A stretch of 33,587 nucleotides of DNA from Actinomycetota bacterium. GTDB lineage: Bacteria > Actinomycetota > CADDZG01 > WHSQ01. Position 1 is the first letter of the stretch, and the number at the start of each line of letters is the position of its first letter. Positions 14,669 through 25,550 of the stretch are shown here, one piece after another. The notes under the pieces are model-generated. The model saw nothing but the letters and a program-made list of their open reading frames with translations, made no database searches and was not told where the DNA came from. A program made the translations under genes and the position numbers. The DNA lies in contig JACCXF010000325.1 of NCBI GenBank assembly GCA_013697295.1, positions 1 to 33,587 on the forward strand, read 5' to 3'.

Positions 14669-15301
14669 TTATTGATTGGGATCGTCCTCCATCGCCGTGG
14701 TTGCCCCGTCGTGGCGCTTGATGTCGCCCCAGGTGAGGAGTCCATCGCGCGCTCCGACCTCGAGCTCGACGACACCTCCGTTGCTAACACCACGCAGCCG
14801 GGCCGACTCGCGATCGTCGTATCCCATCGCCTCCGCAACCAACCACCTCATCGTTCCACCATGACTCACGACCGCCACGGTCCCATCTGGATGCGCCTCC
14901 ACTATCCGCCCAAGGGCTCGCAGAGCCCGAGCCCTGACCTCCTGCGGGGTCTCCCCGCCAGGCCTCGCGTGATAGTGCCGGGCCCGGCCCCAGAGCTCGG
15001 GCCAGCGACGCTCGATCTCGTCGGCGGGCATCCCCTCCCACACGCCCTGGTCGATCTCGCGCAGATCCGGATCGGCGGTGACATCCACGCCGCGCGCTGC
15101 GGCGAGCGGGCGCGCGGTCTCGACCGCACGACTGAGATCGCTCGCGTACACCGCATCGATGTCCCTACCCGAGAGTGAGGCCGCGGTCTTCGTCGCCTCT
15201 CGGCGACCCCTGTCGTTGAGAGGGATGTCGGCATGACCCTGCGCGAGTCGCTTGTCGTTCCATTCCGTCGAGCCGTGTCGGATCAGCAGGATCGTCGTCA
15301 T
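14669..15301 (-). CDS. Histidine phosphatase family protein (phosphoglycerate-mutase-like)
   Basis: A 210-residue member of the histidine phosphatase superfamily. The catalytic [10 protein letters not shown] motif is at residues 6-15 with His9 as the nucleophile. The conserved Arg is in [12 protein letters not shown], the acid in [10 protein letters not shown] and the second His in [11 protein letters not shown]. The size and motifs fit the CobC / GpmB-like phosphatases rather than glycolytic mutase. The substrate cannot be inferred. It lies between the exonuclease and alaC on the minus strand, probably as part of one transcript. Confidence 0.9.
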
Positions 15302-15323: not shown

Positions 15324-16208
15324 CTATCTTGCTCCCCCTTGGGACCCGCCGGCTACGGCTCGGGCGAGGCGCGCGGAGGAGCTCTTCAGACCGTGGATCT
15401 CCCCCAACTCATGCAAGGCATCGTCGTTCGGTTGGTGTGCCTCGGTCATCTCGACCTCGGCATCGGGCACCAGGCCCACGACCGTCTTCATAGCTTCGAG
15501 ATAGTCCCGCGCCTGGTCGAAGGCCAGGGCCTGCTTGGGGGGAAGGGTCGCGAGGTTCTCGAGGATCGCGTCGACCGATCCGAATTCGCGCAGCAGCTTC
15601 ACCCCCCGCACGGGCCCGATCCCGGCTACCCCGGGCAATCCGTCCGAGCTGTCCCCTCGCAGGATGGCGAACTGCGGGTAGAGCGACGGAGGCACGCCGT
15701 ACTTCTCCTCCACGGCCGACTCGTCGAACACGGTCAGCTCGCTGACTCCTTTGACCGGAAAGAGAAGGACGATGTCGGGATCGCGAACGAGGGCGAGCAG
15801 ATCTCGGTCGCCGGAAACTATCGCCGCCTGCTCCTCCGGAGGCTTCCGTGCGACCAGTGTCGCGAGCACGTCGTCGGCCTCGAGCCCAGCCGCTTCGGCG
15901 CGAACGATCCCCGCCGTGTCGAGAACCTCTGCCAGCACATCGAACTGGCGCGGGAGCTCCGGAGGATCTTCCTGCCGCTCCGACTTGTAACCGGCGTAGG
16001 CCTCAACGCGGAACGCGGGTCGCCAGTCCGCGTCGAAGACGGCTACGACCTCGCGCGGTCGCCGGTCGGTCAGCAACCGCGTTGTCATCTCCATGAAACC
16101 CCTCACGGCGTTGACCGACCTGCCCTGAGGGTCCCGGATGGTTTTCGGAAGGGCGAAGAACGCCCGGTATACGAGGCTAGGAGCGTCGAGGTACATGCGA
16201 TCGATCAT
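15324..16208 (-). CDS. Stand-alone 5'-3' exonuclease (Pol I-type FEN domain)
   Basis: A 294-residue protein equivalent to the N-terminal 5'-3' exonuclease domain of DNA polymerase I, without the polymerase. Metal-binding acidic residues are visible in MYLDAPSLVYRAFF, VAVFDADWRPAF, EADDVLATL, SGDRDLLAL and GDSSDGLPGVAGIGPVRG, the last also being the helix-hairpin-helix/H3TH DNA-binding segment. It likely removes RNA primers or flaps. The ATG overlaps the MFS stop (ATGA), so translation is probably coupled to the upstream transporter gene, an odd functional pairing. Whether a full polA exists elsewhere cannot be told from this window. Confidence 0.92.
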   Translation of the reverse strand: MIDRMYLDAPSLVYRAFFALPKTIRDPQGRSVNAVRGFMEMTTRLLTDRRPREVVAVFDADWRPAFRVEAYAGYKSERQEDPPELPRQFDVLAEVLDTAGIVRAEAAGLEADDVLATLVARKPPEEQAAIVSGDRDLLALVRDPDIVLLFPVKGVSELTVFDESAVEEKYGVPPSLYPQFAILRGDSSDGLPGVAGIGPVRGVKLLREFGSVDAILENLATLPPKQALAFDQARDYLEAMKTVVGLVPDAEVEMTEAHQPNDDALHELGEIHGLKSSSARLARAVAGGSQGGAR

Positions 16209-17557
16209 CAGCCCGACATCTTCGCCGAATGTTCGATGTCGCGTTCCTCCTCACTGTCGCGATCCCACGAGGCCTCGGGCTTACGAGAAGCCCCGCGGAT
16301 CCTCATCCGCTCGTCCTTCTCGGTGTCGTACAGGCGCGGCAATACCATGAACGAAAGCATGGCGACCGCACCCAGCACGCCTGCCCCGATGAGTGTCGCC
16401 CTCAACCCGATCAGCTTCCAGAGGGGACCCGTCAACGCGAATGACAACGGCGTGAGGCCTGTCGAGACCATCCAATCGAGGCTCTGCACACGCCCCAAGA
16501 GGTCGCGCGGAACGAGCCGGTGCATGAGCGTGCTCCACACGATCATCCCGGCGGATACGGCGGCGCCGTCGATGAAGCCAAAGATCATCGCCTGCCAGAC
16601 GGTCGTGACGAAGGCGAAACCGGCAACCGCTCCCGCCGCCACCGCGAAGCTGAGGTACATGAACACCATGTGTCGTCGGGGCAACCCGCGCTGCGCCATC
16701 ACCACGGCCACGAGGATCGAGCCAACGCCTCCCGCAGCGAAGACCAGTCCGAGAGCATCCGCGCCCGAGGCCAGGTTGTTCTTGATGACGAACGGCAGCA
16801 GGACCTCGAACGGGCCCACCCAGAAGAGAAGCATCAACGAGGCCGCCGCCAGCGTCGCCCACAGCCAGGTGTGGGCCTTGACGAATCGCAGGCCCTCCGC
16901 AACCTCCGAGAACATCGAACCCTGTCGTTCCCTCGAAGGCGCGCCCTTGCGTGCCGTTATCGCGTAGATGCAGGCCCCCGAGACGACGAACGTGAGCGCG
17001 TCGAACAGGAAGGCGTAGCCTTCGTTGCCCTCTCCGGCGGCGGCGATGACTATCCCTCCGACCGCCGGGCCCAGGAGACGTTCCGCCAGAGGCCGGACGA
17101 ACTGTCCGAGAGAGTTCGCCTCTACCAGGAGGTGCTGGGGCACGAGGTCCGGGATGATCGCTCCGAACGAGGGCCCGAAGAAGGCATCCCCGATGCCATA
17201 GATCGCGACGAACACGAACATGTGCCAGAGCTCGAGGTCCCCGGTGATGGACAGCACCCCGATGACCACAACCGCGACGAAACGGATGACGTCGGAGAGG
17301 ATCAACAGAGCGCGTCGATCGAACCGATCACTCAGGACCCCGCTCAGCAGCATGAACACGACCATCGGAACGGTCCAGGCAACGCCCACAGCGGAAAGCG
17401 CCGTAGGAGCGTTCGAAAGGGCGTAGACCTGCCACGCGAGGGCGACGTAGTAGATGCCGTCACCCAGCAGCGAAACGCTTTCTCCGATCCACAGGAGCCT
17501 GAAGTCCTTGATCCGGAGGGGCATCAGTATTCGAATCTTGTTATCTATGCGAAGCAT
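16208..17557 (-). CDS. MFS exporter (EntS-like family)
   Basis: A 449-residue major facilitator with about 12 hydrophobic segments. LLWIGESVSLLGDGIYYVAL is the typical TM1 of the MFS_3/EntS-like group, and LSGVLSDRFDRRALLILSD is the TM2-3 loop signature. The C-terminus is a hydrophilic tail rich in Arg, Glu and Asp. An AAAGGA seven bases before ATG 17557 supports that start, although MPLRIKDFRLLW at 17524 would resemble the family start better. It is probably an efflux system of unknown substrate. The stop overlaps the start of the exonuclease gene. The 319 bases upstream hold no confident gene. Confidence 0.9.
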   Translation of the reverse strand: MLRIDNKIRILMPLRIKDFRLLWIGESVSLLGDGIYYVALAWQVYALSNAPTALSAVGVAWTVPMVVFMLLSGVLSDRFDRRALLILSDVIRFVAVVVIGVLSITGDLELWHMFVFVAIYGIGDAFFGPSFGAIIPDLVPQHLLVEANSLGQFVRPLAERLLGPAVGGIVIAAAGEGNEGYAFLFDALTFVVSGACIYAITARKGAPSRERQGSMFSEVAEGLRFVKAHTWLWATLAAASLMLLFWVGPFEVLLPFVIKNNLASGADALGLVFAAGGVGSILVAVVMAQRGLPRRHMVFMYLSFAVAAGAVAGFAFVTTVWQAMIFGFIDGAAVSAGMIVWSTLMHRLVPRDLLGRVQSLDWMVSTGLTPLSFALTGPLWKLIGLRATLIGAGVLGAVAMLSFMVLPRLYDTEKDERMRIRGASRKPEASWDRDSEEERDIEHSAKMSG

Positions 17558-17876
17558 GTCGTGTTCCTTTGGTAAGAGCCGTCACGGTGCGACAGGGCGC
17601 ACGAGTGGCGGAGAGGCGGCGCGAGGACGAGTTCTTGCGGGGCCCTCAGGCGGCGGAGAAGCAGATGCGCGGGGTGCTCTCCGTGGCCGGAGGTCTCGAC
17701 GGTCGCATGGACGCGCGCAGAGGCACAACCATCGCCGCTTCGAGAAACCCTTTGTGGGCAAGTCCTTTGTGCGAACACCACACGTTGGAACCCACGTCGC
17801 ATACCGCTTTCATCATTCTTCTGTTATAGCACGGGGTTACGGCTCGACTCCACAAGCTTGCCTCGATCGACTCCGG
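17558..17876. other. Intergenic stretch without a confident gene
   Basis: This 319-base stretch lies between the MFS gene and the broken copper ATPase. Short frames exist on both strands (86 codons plus at 17569-17829, 69 codons minus at 17646-17855), but none has a known domain, and their composition fits out-of-frame coding or spacer DNA. I see no tRNA, terminator or repeat beyond a short direct CCTTTGTG near 17755 and 17765. It may be debris left by the deletion in the ATPase. Confidence 0.5.
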
Positions 17877-18740
17877 TCAGATCATTCCGGAGTGAAACGA
17901 CGCAATCGCAACGCGTTCATCACGACACTTACCGAGGAGAACGCCATCGCGATGCCCGCGATCGCCCGGCCGCACTTTCATCAGGTCGCCGGGCACGACA
18001 TCGTCGACCGGGATGGTGTCCTCGATCCCCGATCGGATCACACGTGCATGCTTCGCGCCCATCTCCATGAGCGAGGAGATGGCGCGCGAAGCGCGATTTC
18101 GCGAGCGGTATTCGAGGTACTTGCCGAGCAACAGGAACGTTACGAGCACCCCGATGATCTCGAAGTAGAGGTGCTCGCCCGCCAGCAGTGCGTAGAGCGA
18201 GTAGAGGTAGGCAGACAAGGTGCCCAGAGCGACAAGCGTGTCCATGTTCGCGGCCCGATGACGCGCGTTGGCCCACGCGCCTTTCAGGAACGGCGCTGCC
18301 GTCCAGAACTGGACCGGTGTGATCAACAGGAATTGCGCCCATCGCACCCGATCAGGCATCGGGAGCAACATCGCCAGGATCACCGCAGGAAGCGACAACG
18401 CTAGGGACGCCAGGAAGCGGTTGCGAGCGGACCGGGTTCGGTCTTCGACCTCGTCCGCGCCGGGAGCATCCGGTCGATCGTGATCGCGCAGCTCGAGGTC
18501 GTACCCGGCCCCCCTGACGGCGACGATCAGCTCGCCGCCGCGGGCAGCATCATCGACCTCGACCGAGGCTCGTTCCAGCGCAAAGTTCACCCCTGCCTTG
18601 GTCACCCCAGGATGCTCCGCCAGGGTGTTCTCGACGCGCCGCGCGCAAGCGGCGCACGTCATGCCCGTGACATCGAAATCGAGCCGGAGCTCGCTCTCGT
18701 TCCCCTCCCGGGCGGTGCTGGGCGTCGTGGCCATGCTCAC
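17877..18740 (-). pseudogene. copA: Copper P-type ATPase (CopA), catalytic core deleted
   Basis: The first part is a normal CopA: an HMA metal-binding domain (GMTCAACARRVE, Cys 29 and 32), four membrane segments (about residues 109-213) and the beginning of the actuator domain (VVPGDLMKVRPGD). After GDR the sequence jumps to the extreme C-terminus of a CopA, but in another reading frame. The 287-codon frame therefore ends in an unrelated tail. The TGE loop, the CPC ion motif, the DKTG phosphorylation site, the nucleotide domain and the last two membrane helices are all absent (normal length about 740-800 residues). This is a deletion pseudogene or an assembly collapse. A CsoR-like operator lies directly upstream. 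Start is GTG 18740 or ATG 18734. Confidence 0.9.
17882..17962 (-). pseudogene. copA: Out-of-frame C-terminal remnant of CopA
   Basis: Shifted one frame from the N-terminal part, the minus strand reads IAGIAMAFSSVSVVMNALRL and then RRFTPE before a TGA at 17884-17882. That is the conserved last helix and tail of CopA-type ATPases (AMAFSSVSVV-N-LRLRR). It proves that a full-length copA once stood here or that two ends were joined during assembly. The junction lies at GGCGATCGC, plus-strand 17958-17966. Confidence 0.88.
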
Positions 18741-18743
18741 AGG

Positions 18744-18760
18744 ATACCCCCGAGGGGTAT
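18744..18760. promoter_or_regulatory. CsoR-type copper operator upstream of copA
   Basis: Perfect inverted repeat ATACCCC-CGA-GGGGTAT, 7-bp arms and a 3-base centre, three bases before the copA GTG. Bacterial CsoR operators are GC-rich pseudopalindromes of the form TACCC...GGGTA, so this fits copper-responsive repression. A TATAT just upstream on the minus strand could be a -10 element overlapping the operator. No csoR gene is seen in the window. Confidence 0.75.
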
Positions 18761-18765
18761 ATAGC

Positions 18766-19650
18766 TCAACCGCGAACCAGGGGCGCCACTCGGTTCCCCA
18801 CCAGATCGAGGGTGCGTCCGTCCCCCCATTCGAGCGGCGTGAGCACGGCGTGCGTCACCCCCGCCTCCTCGAGTTCGCCGAGCCTGTCGGCAACCGTCTG
18901 GGGTCCACCCACGAGGTAGCCGGCCGGATCGCGTTCGCCGAGCTGTGCGCCCGCATCCGCGTCATCGGCCCCGATGATCAGCGTGCCCGCCCACGTGATC
19001 TCGACGGGGCGAGCGGAGCCGGCCAGCTTCGCGATGCCGGAGGCAAGCTCGTCGAGGTCCACGCCCCAGGCGTTCCACCCATCCCCGTACTCGCGAGCGA
19101 GCTCGATCAGTGGATCCGAACGCCCCCCCATCCAGATCCGCGGTGGGATCTCGGGCCTGGGCGACACCGGGAGCTCGCGCACGCTATGGAACTCATCACC
19201 GACATCGACGGTTGTTCCGTCGAACCAGGCGCGCAGGAGGCGAACGCTAGAGCGGAGCTGGGCGATCCGATCCGGGCCCGCGAAATAAGCGAACCCGAAA
19301 GCCCGGTTCTCATCGGCGCTCATCGCGTCGCCGCTTCCCAACCCGACGATCGTTCGTTGCGGCGCGATCGAACCAACGGTCGAGGCCATCTTCGCGAGCA
19401 GCGCAGGGTGCCTCAGGGTCGACCGCGTCACCAGCGTTCCGATGGTGATCGAACGGGTGGCCTCCGCCACATACGCGAGCGAGGTCCAGCACTCCAACAT
19501 CGGCCGCACCTTCTTCCCGCTCAACGGCCACATGTGGTCGAACACCCAGATCGAATCCAAGCCCAGGTCCTCCGCCTTGCGGGCGCCAGCGACGAGGTCA
19601 TGGGCATCCGGCGAGAACTGCGGAAGAGTGATCCCGAGAGACAGGCTCAC
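18766..19650 (-). CDS. LLM-class F420-dependent oxidoreductase
   Basis: A 294-residue luciferase-like monooxygenase fold enzyme of the F420-dependent type. The N-terminal SLGITLPQFSPDAHDLVAGA, the DSIWVFDHMWPL block, TRSITIGTLVTRSTLRHPALLAKMAST (in parts) and GLGSGDAMSADENRAFGF are typical. RIWMGGRSDPLIELAREYGD is the C-terminal family signature. A frame is open upstream to 20385, but that extension is antisense-like noise. The true start is GTG 19650, which overlaps the TGA of the upstream membrane-protein gene (GTGA). Presence implies coenzyme F420 use. The substrate is unknown. Confidence 0.9.
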   Translation of the reverse strand: MSLSLGITLPQFSPDAHDLVAGARKAEDLGLDSIWVFDHMWPLSGKKVRPMLECWTSLAYVAEATRSITIGTLVTRSTLRHPALLAKMASTVGSIAPQRTIVGLGSGDAMSADENRAFGFAYFAGPDRIAQLRSSVRLLRAWFDGTTVDVGDEFHSVRELPVSPRPEIPPRIWMGGRSDPLIELAREYGDGWNAWGVDLDELASGIAKLAGSARPVEITWAGTLIIGADDADAGAQLGERDPAGYLVGGPQTVADRLGELEEAGVTHAVLTPLEWGDGRTLDLVGNRVAPLVRG

Positions 19651-20426
19651 GATGCGTTCACCATGAGATAGCGCACGAGGAACTCCGATACCCCGGCCGT
19701 GAGCAAGGCGACGTAGTAGAGGCCGGTGGCCGACTGGATCGAGCGGATCTTGATACACCGTCGGGCGGCCCACACCACCGCTCCGGTGAACAGCACAAGC
19801 GCAGCCCATATCCCGAAGAAAACGAGAGCGAACGAGTCGCCGAAACCGGGGAGACCGAGGACCGCCCCCTCGGTCGAGGCCGTCGCGAGCAAGGGAGCTG
19901 CGAGCGCGCCGGCCACGAGAGATGCCGCGGTCGTCACCAGCGCGGCATCCGTGAGCCGCCCCAGGGCCCACGGTTTCAAGCCCGGCTGATTGAGATACCA
20001 GTGCCCCAGCAACATCCCATTCGTAACCGCCCCCACGAGGCCCGCTCCGACGATCAAGGCCAGGCCCGCTGCGATGTGTGCCCACCCCGAGACCAGTCCC
20101 CCGGCCACCGCCAGCGACGCGGCCCCCACTGCGCCCACGGCGTACCCCGCGACGACGCCGGGTACCTCCGAGCGGGAGTACTGGAGCGCTACATTCAGTG
20201 CCGCCACGACCACGACACCGGTGACGAGGATCCCCCCGACTCCCCCCGCATCGGCGGCCCGACCCGCGATCGCCGCAAGAACGGCGAGAACGAGCACCGT
20301 CCAGGCGACGATCTTGAAATGGCCTCGCCTGACAACGGCCCACGACTGGGTCCACGCCGCTCCGGCCGCTAGCCCGGAGGTCCACTCGAGGAGCACGAGC
20401 ACAACCACGGCCGCCGGGCCGCTCAA
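19647..20426 (-). CDS. Multi-pass membrane protein of unknown function
   Basis: A 259-residue hydrophobic protein with about seven or eight membrane segments, rich in Ala, Val and Gly. The only notable internal motif is GHWYLNQPGLKPWALGRL near residue 141, a polar His/Trp/Asn segment between helices, and the C-terminal RSIQSATGLYYVALLTAGVS. I do not recognise a characterised family. It sits between the DUF1232 gene (19 bases upstream) and the LLM gene (4-base overlap downstream), so it is part of the long minus-strand transcript. The coupling to the LLM enzyme suggests a shared job (inference). Confidence 0.8.
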   Translation of the reverse strand: MSGPAAVVVLVLLEWTSGLAAGAAWTQSWAVVRRGHFKIVAWTVLVLAVLAAIAGRAADAGGVGGILVTGVVVVAALNVALQYSRSEVPGVVAGYAVGAVGAASLAVAGGLVSGWAHIAAGLALIVGAGLVGAVTNGMLLGHWYLNQPGLKPWALGRLTDAALVTTAASLVAGALAAPLLATASTEGAVLGLPGFGDSFALVFFGIWAALVLFTGAVVWAARRCIKIRSIQSATGLYYVALLTAGVSEFLVRYLMVNAS

Positions 20427-23808: not shown

Positions 23809-24591
23809 TCAAACGCGCTCTTCTTTGCGGTGAGGAAAAGCTCTCTTGGTAGAGCGAAAGTAGCCGACATTGATGCACAACGTTCCCCCGATGTGCATCG
23901 ATGACAGAAGCGGCTGATGCACGTGGCCGAAGTAGGCCCGACGAGGCTGGTACTCCTCGATGTATTCCAGAAGGTCGACGCTCCCCCGCTCGGCCTTCCC
24001 GGCCAACGTGTCGAAACAGAGATCGGGAACGGCCGGCGGTATGTGGGAGCAGAGGACGTCGACGGGGCCCAGAGACTCGACTTTCTCCCTCATGTGCTCT
24101 TCGGTGATCTCTCCGGCGACGTTCAGTGGGGTTGGGAGGGCGCCGCCGACGAACCCGAATCGCTCGCCATCCAGAATGATGACCCTAGCGTCCGCGTCGC
24201 GAACGGCGGGGCTCGACGACAAACAATGGGATACGAGGGCCGGGTTGTCGACGTTCCCAAGGATGAGATATGTCGGATCCGGAAAGACCGAGAAAACCGC
24301 GTCGTACTGTTCTCGCACCCGCCGGCCGATCTCGGCTCGCACCTCGTCCTCACGACCCGCCGTTCGCTCGACCATCGCCTGCCGCACCAGCTCGAACTGG
24401 CCCTCGGCCCGCAGGCGGATGACCTTCTCGACCGCCTCCACGGAGAACACCTCAGTGAGGATCCCGGTCATAGACGTGTAATCGATGAAGTTGATGAGGT
24501 CGCCGAGCAATAGCAGCGTCGCCCCCTCGGGAACCGCCTTCACGAGATCATCTGGAGCTCCGTGCAGATCCGAGACGACGTAGATGGACAT
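23809..24591 (-). CDS. Calcineurin-like metallophosphoesterase
   Basis: A 260-residue phosphoesterase with the full metal-ligand set: DLH (residues 8-10), LLGDLINF, GNVDNPA, CSHIPP and GHVHQP. Length and layout fit small calcineurin-like esterases of the YfcE/UDP-hydrolase type, but the large helical insertion after GDLINFIDY (about residues 36-100) is unusual for YfcE. The substrate is unknown. It is first in the minus-strand run that continues through SRPBCC, ArsA and ROK. No clear ribosome binding site precedes the ATG. Confidence 0.88.
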   Translation of the reverse strand: MSIYVVSDLHGAPDDLVKAVPEGATLLLLGDLINFIDYTSMTGILTEVFSVEAVEKVIRLRAEGQFELVRQAMVERTAGREDEVRAEIGRRVREQYDAVFSVFPDPTYLILGNVDNPALVSHCLSSSPAVRDADARVIILDGERFGFVGGALPTPLNVAGEITEEHMREKVESLGPVDVLCSHIPPAVPDLCFDTLAGKAERGSVDLLEYIEEYQPRRAYFGHVHQPLLSSMHIGGTLCINVGYFRSTKRAFPHRKEERV

Positions 24592-24683
24592 CTAGCCATG
24601 CTATCGAGCGGATGGCGTTTTGACGCCGGCCCCCACGCGGAGTAGGAGTACGGCATGTCGAGCGGCCCCGGTTCCCTCACGCG

Positions 24684-25550
24684 ATGACCCTCGTCCTGGT
24701 TCACGGGGGGGTCTCCGGCGTGGACAAAGCGATGCCGGGCCTGCAGGATGCGATCAGGGCGGGCGCCACACAGTCCAATGCCCTCGACGCCGCCGAGGAG
24801 GCGGTGCGCTCGCTCGAGGACCACCCCGAGCTGAACGCCGGTTACGGCGCGGTCTTGAACCGAGCCGGCGAGGTCGAACTCGACGCTGCGATCGTCGACG
24901 GCGCACGAGGGCGATGGGGCGGTGTCGCGAACGTGCGGTTCCGCAACCCCGTCTCGCTCGCCCGGATGGTGATGGAGCGCACCCCCCACGTTCTGCTCGC
25001 CGGAACCGGCGCGCAAGAAGCCGGCGTGGCGTTCGGACTCGAGGAGATGAACGAGTCGTCCCCCGAGCAGCACGAGAGATGGGCGCGGGAACGCGACGCG
25101 GGTCGCCTGGGACTCGAGTCCTACGGCCGCTCGGAGCATGTGGACACCGTCGGAGTGGTGGTTCTCGATGAGGCCTCTCGGCTCTGCGCTGCGTCCTCAA
25201 CCGGAGGGGTGCTCGGGAAGCTGCCCGGCCGCGTCGGTGACTCGCCGATCCTGGGGGCGGGGACCTACGCGTCCTCCGGCGCCGCCGTCGTCGGAACGGG
25301 GGTCGGCGAATTGTTCCTCGAGACCCTCGCCTGTTTGCGCGCCGCCCGATTGATCGAAGAAGGGCTCGATCCGCAGGCGGCTTGCGAACGCACGGTCTCG
25401 CTGTTGGGCGAGCGGCAGCAGGTGGCCGCCGGGTTGCTGGCCCTGGATACCGGCGGTCGCGTCGGAGCAGCTTTCAGGGGCGGATCGTGGTCGGTGTGGG
25501 GGCCCGAGGGGCCGATCGGAGCGGTGTGTCTGGGTCCGGCACGAGACTGA
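24684..25550 (+). CDS. Isoaspartyl peptidase / L-asparaginase (Ntn hydrolase)
   Basis: A 288-residue threonine-type Ntn hydrolase that removes isoaspartyl damage or hydrolyses asparagine. The alpha-subunit begins LVLVHGGVSGVDKAMPGLQD and contains ELNAGYGAVLNRAGEVELDA. The autocatalytic cleavage site is at HVDTVGVVVLD, Thr155 being the new N-terminal nucleophile. GRVGDSPILGAGTYAS is the beta-subunit signature, and a TG-like GTGVGELFLE follows. It is divergent from the metallophosphoesterase with about 90 bases between, and it converges with the RanBP2-type protein (6 bases between stops). The start lacks a good ribosome binding site. Confidence 0.92.
   Translation: MTLVLVHGGVSGVDKAMPGLQDAIRAGATQSNALDAAEEAVRSLEDHPELNAGYGAVLNRAGEVELDAAIVDGARGRWGGVANVRFRNPVSLARMVMERTPHVLLAGTGAQEAGVAFGLEEMNESSPEQHERWARERDAGRLGLESYGRSEHVDTVGVVVLDEASRLCAASSTGGVLGKLPGRVGDSPILGAGTYASSGAAVVGTGVGELFLETLACLRAARLIEEGLDPQAACERTVSLLGERQQVAAGLLALDTGGRVGAAFRGGSWSVWGPEGPIGAVCLGPARD

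Follow-up and report, generated by a model that had tools for sequence, protein, structure and literature searches.

The window analysed here, a stretch of 33,587 nucleotides, makes up contig C339 of G000, a 2.67-Mb draft genome in 358 contigs with a completeness of 95%. Its minus strand carries an open reading frame of 287 amino acids (17877-18740) in which the N-terminal part of a CopA-type copper ATPase runs straight into an out-of-frame tail; this reading frame and its surroundings are laid out in Table 1. The start codon is probably the ATG at 18734, with a GTG at 18740. Residues 22-81 were recognised by profile search as an HMA domain (PF00403, E value 8.5e-13) and contain the CxxC motif expected in the N-terminal HMA domain of a functional CopA, and the helices MA, MB, M1 and M2 were predicted from homology to solved CopA structures. 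The actuator domain, which is complete in a functional CopA, is incomplete here, residues 227-270 matching no more of the E1-E2 ATPase profile than positions 2-45 out of 181.

Frame reading across 17870-18060 gave ...DVVPGDLMKVRPGDR in one frame and AIAGIAMAFSSVSVVMNALRLRRFTPE, followed by a stop codon, in another; the latter is the C-terminus of CopA and has up to 87% identity with the C-termini of many full-length CopA proteins. A previous sequence-only reading of this DNA had described an N-terminal CopA part joined out of frame to C-terminal residues, and both parts were recovered by our frame reading, the C-terminal one comprising the last 26-27 residues. In its HMA domain with GMTCAAC, its N-terminal helices, its C-terminal MAFSS...NALRLRRF and the CsoR-type operator adjoining its start, the gene resembles the CsoR-controlled Cu+-exporting P1B-1-type CopA proteins, for example those of the Streptomyces lividans copZA operons, but it is without the actuator domain (except for its start), M3-M5 and the phosphorylation and nucleotide domains.

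Table 1 Features at and around the copA locus in the window.
Feature	Position	Strand	Remarks
CsoR-type operator ATACCCCCGAGGGGTAT	18744-18760		Exact palindromic half-sites; adjoins the copA start
copA 5' remnant, own frame	17958-18740	-	HMA domain, four predicted N-terminal helices, start of actuator domain; ends ...MKVRPGDR
copA 3' remnant, second frame	17882-17965	-	AIAGIAMAFSSVSVVMNALRLRRFTPE, closed by a stop codon in the same frame; end of M6, C-tail
Out-of-frame tail of the present reading frame	17877-17957	-	GHRDGVLLGKCRDERVAIASFHSGMI and stop codon; 26 nonsense residues
Putative deletion join GGCGATCGC	17958-17966	-	From frame reading; GATCGC could be shared by both ancestral sites if the C-side residue was Met
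LLM (luciferase-like) monooxygenase, upstream neighbour	18766-19671	-	Syntenic with G003
MFS transporter (16208-17557) and stand-alone 5'-3' exonuclease (15324-16208)	15324-17557	-	Between copA and the phosphatase
Histidine phosphatase, downstream syntenic neighbour	14669-15301	-	Directly after copA in G003

Size and content of the missing stretch

In full-length CopA orthologues of the near family, the two join points are 439-447 codons apart, and the frame change requires that the number of bases lost be two more than a multiple of three. Together, these values give a loss of 1,325-1,349 bp (about 1.33 kb), which replaces the deletion of about 1.5 kb proposed earlier. Mapped on the CopA of contig C127, an intact paralogue, the lost part corresponds to residues 341 to 788 and contains all six motifs located there (TGES at 361, CPC at 463, DKTGT at 507, SEHP at 541, TGDN at 661 and GDGVNDAP at 707). 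The loss of the catalytic core, as previously claimed, is supported in the form of a single internal deletion with every catalytic motif in the missing stretch. The present reading frame stops before the CPC of M4, DKTGT, TGE, HP and GDGxNDAP of a functional CopA and, because these catalytic motifs are absent, its 287-residue product would be inert and incapable of pumping.

The same place in a related genome

The entire 33.6-kb window is colinear with positions 877-913 kb of contig 4 of G003, a genome from another genus of the same family. There, copA is flanked by the LLM monooxygenase on one side and the histidine phosphatase on the other, and the MFS transporter and the 5'-3' exonuclease of the window are absent from the corresponding place. 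The sequence-only reading had suggested looking here in close relatives for a full-length copA; G003 has, in the syntenic place, an orthologue that possesses the core. Its frame is open through the motifs lost in the window until it reaches a scaffold gap of 100 N, and the C-terminal part beyond the gap is in another frame. In the window, the N and C parts of copA lie in order on one strand and in two frames, and the gene order shared with G003 indicates that both remnants belong to one gene, which underwent an internal deletion either in the G000 lineage or during assembly. The locus has the make-up of a pseudogene: both ends are present and collinear, the core is missing, and the core is found at the same locus of the relative. 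A C part derived from another locus by a chimeric join was ruled out by synteny and orientation. Scans with the N part retrieved only distant relatives (33-40%) and no congener among the genome contigs, and no useful match among the viral contigs.

The scaffold gap of G003 (contig 4, near 895.7 kb; locus L040) has duplicated flanks and adjoins the MGDGINDAP region of copA; the net excess of 155 bp seen both here and in a further gene (L139) would be consistent with 100 N together with an overlap of 55 bp. Another truncated P-type ATPase was seen in a relative, G040 (contig C13, 2550-3299). In G015 (contig C255, about 920-1370; locus L182), a truncated P-type ATPase homologue ends just before a tRNA-like sequence, and its truncation point is possibly an island border; its join is unrelated to the one in the window.

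Assembly as a source of the join

The sequence-only reading had remarked that an assembly collapse would give the same picture. This objection is weakened by three contig pairs (C329/C356, C127/C145 and C207/C211) that overlap at their ends by exactly 127 bp, which points to a de Bruijn assembly with k=127. A repeat must reach the k of the assembler to be collapsed, and the repeat considered here has at most 10 bp; repeats of 6-10 bp are not collapsible in such a graph, so a simple assembly collapse is unlikely and was rejected.

Other kinds of artefact were weighed separately. The cells may carry a full-length copA, the join having come from a minority variant with the deletion, from a chimeric molecule or from a gap that was closed wrongly, an explanation that we regard as unlikely while giving it some weight. 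Although G000 is a draft in 358 contigs, a k=127 graph normally needs many overlapping reads across the join, and 1.3 kb is more than paired reads with ordinary insert lengths would span. Of the genome's five P-type ATPases, members of a conserved multi-copy family, two lack their core (C339 and, apparently, C328), a notable share that might point to an artefact linked to conserved genes, and the 100-N gap of G003 with its duplicated ends in a conserved ATPase motif indicates that such genes do trouble assemblers; against this, Pfam and protein searches found the missing copA core on no other contig of the bin, only three intact ATPases being found. That both remnants are undamaged would be expected as much from an artefact as from a very recent event. 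A two-way comparison of about 440 kb of readable G000 sequence (several contigs under 3 kb read as N) with 1.24 Mb of G003 revealed no further clean, large internal deletion, and frameshift-like breaks were equally rare in both genomes; an assembly riddled with internal deletions was rejected on the basis of this comparison. An apparent split gene at 24148-25547 of the window was dismissed as shadow reading frames over two ordinary genes.

The second, apparently core-deleted P-type ATPase of G000 lies on contig C328 (53-750, minus strand; locus L046) and is in frame, forming a reading frame of 233 amino acids whose putative join reads ...VAESRGL|LVPPFTRFF.... Its N part has 52-71% identity with relatives up to the actuator domain, and its in-frame tail bears a weak resemblance to the C-terminal part of the G029 and G037 relatives, which are full-length and in comparison to which about 1.8 kb is missing. 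We consider it highly improbable that core-less P-type ATPases with a conserved N-terminal metal-binding and membrane part recur in G000 (C339 and C328) and have been retained to bind metal at the membrane or to act as regulators.

Homology at the join and possible route of the deletion

On the N side, GGCGATCGC can be read as PGDR codons; the C-side residues of near orthologues are N/D-P-M-I-A. The 9-bp repeat proposed by the sequence-only reading needs GCG (Ala) at the position where these orthologues have ATG (Met), so that only 6-7 bp of it find support. The homology shared at the join would be GATCGC, extended by a G (GATCGCG) if the next residue was Val; Ala at the C-side site would bring the repeat to 9-10 bp, and it would never exceed 10 bp because of the preceding proline and the I/V-P after PGDR. 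This ancestral homology was reconstructed from relatives that are about 55% identical. When break points were placed at random 1.3 kb apart in G000, a shared stretch of at least 6 bp arose in 0.25% of draws and one of at least 9 bp in 0.01%, so the short homology at the join, as reconstructed, exceeds chance. A deletion guided by short homology, as suggested earlier, is plausible, but its proposed length of 9 bp would give way to the 6-7 bp (10 at most) indicated by the orthologues.

Alternatively, the deletion may be real and have arisen through end-joining repair with no guidance by a repeat, the shared bases being there by chance. Only 6-7 bp would be shared if the C-side residue was Met, and GATCGC is a common word, with 1150 occurrences in the G000 sequence examined vs 304 expected from base composition; the rarity of six or more shared bases at random break points nevertheless makes this explanation improbable. 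Among spontaneous rearrangements of Salmonella, deletions of less than 5 kb with short junction homology are a main class (PMC3411829). The deletion favoured for copA resembles these in its length of less than 5 kb, the few base pairs at its join and the loss of frame, and differs in nothing but the locus, its homology length being deduced from relatives.

CsoR-type operator and the second copper pump

The operator ATACCCCCGAGGGGTAT matches the Streptomyces CsoR consensus ATATACCCCTNAGGGGTATAT (PMC3902906) at all but three positions, and its exact half-sites bear out the earlier statement that the operator upstream of copA is intact. The motif ATACCCC-N3-GGGGTAT occurs in exact form twice in G000, before the window copA and before the copA on contig C127, which is intact; a version with one mismatch lies about 100 bp ahead of csoR on contig C327. 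Given the putative type-2 operator next to it and the csoR on C327, the window copA would belong to the CsoR regulon. The presence of the operator before both copA genes and csoR indicates that two copper pumps had a CsoR-type operator, the lost copy being one of them. A one-mismatch CsoR-like operator was also seen near the start of contig C254 (122-138); no copper gene was recognised in the first 1.2 kb of this contig, and the target of the operator may lie off the contig.

The intact HMA domain, N-terminal part and operator, together with the in-frame core deletion of the C328 ATPase, would be compatible with a functional product, a membrane-anchored copper-binding protein that consists of an HMA domain and four helices and remains controlled by CsoR, but 26 nonsense residues close the frame, the actuator domain breaks off soon after it begins, the M6 remnant lies in another frame and the closest orthologues have full length, which makes such a function very doubtful. 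In Escherichia coli, CopA(Z) is a short copA product that arises by programmed frameshift. The product of the window copA is likewise short and retains the HMA domain, but it differs in that it stems from a DNA deletion, includes membrane helices and leaves no full-length product possible.

Discussion

Overall, we consider it likely that a single internal deletion between sites sharing about 6-10 bp removed about 1.33 kb from the window copA, which is now a recent pseudogene whose loss would be tolerated by virtue of the CopA on C127. The ancestor would have been a full-length CsoR-regulated copper-exporting P1B-type ATPase, CopA, of about 730 codons. The deletion would have taken place by slipped replication or microhomology end joining, and would since have become fixed in the cells. 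Losing this copy would be bearable because the C127 CopA, a second pump with a CsoR-type operator, can still export copper.

The analysis is of some use in illustrating how, when reads are missing, an artefact can be weighed with the help of synteny and of contig end overlaps, which disclose the assembly's k. The case itself is plain and has little reach beyond G000: the window copA is an ordinary dead gene copy, ordinary in kind, one of two copper pumps that would have been lost by a single small deletion.
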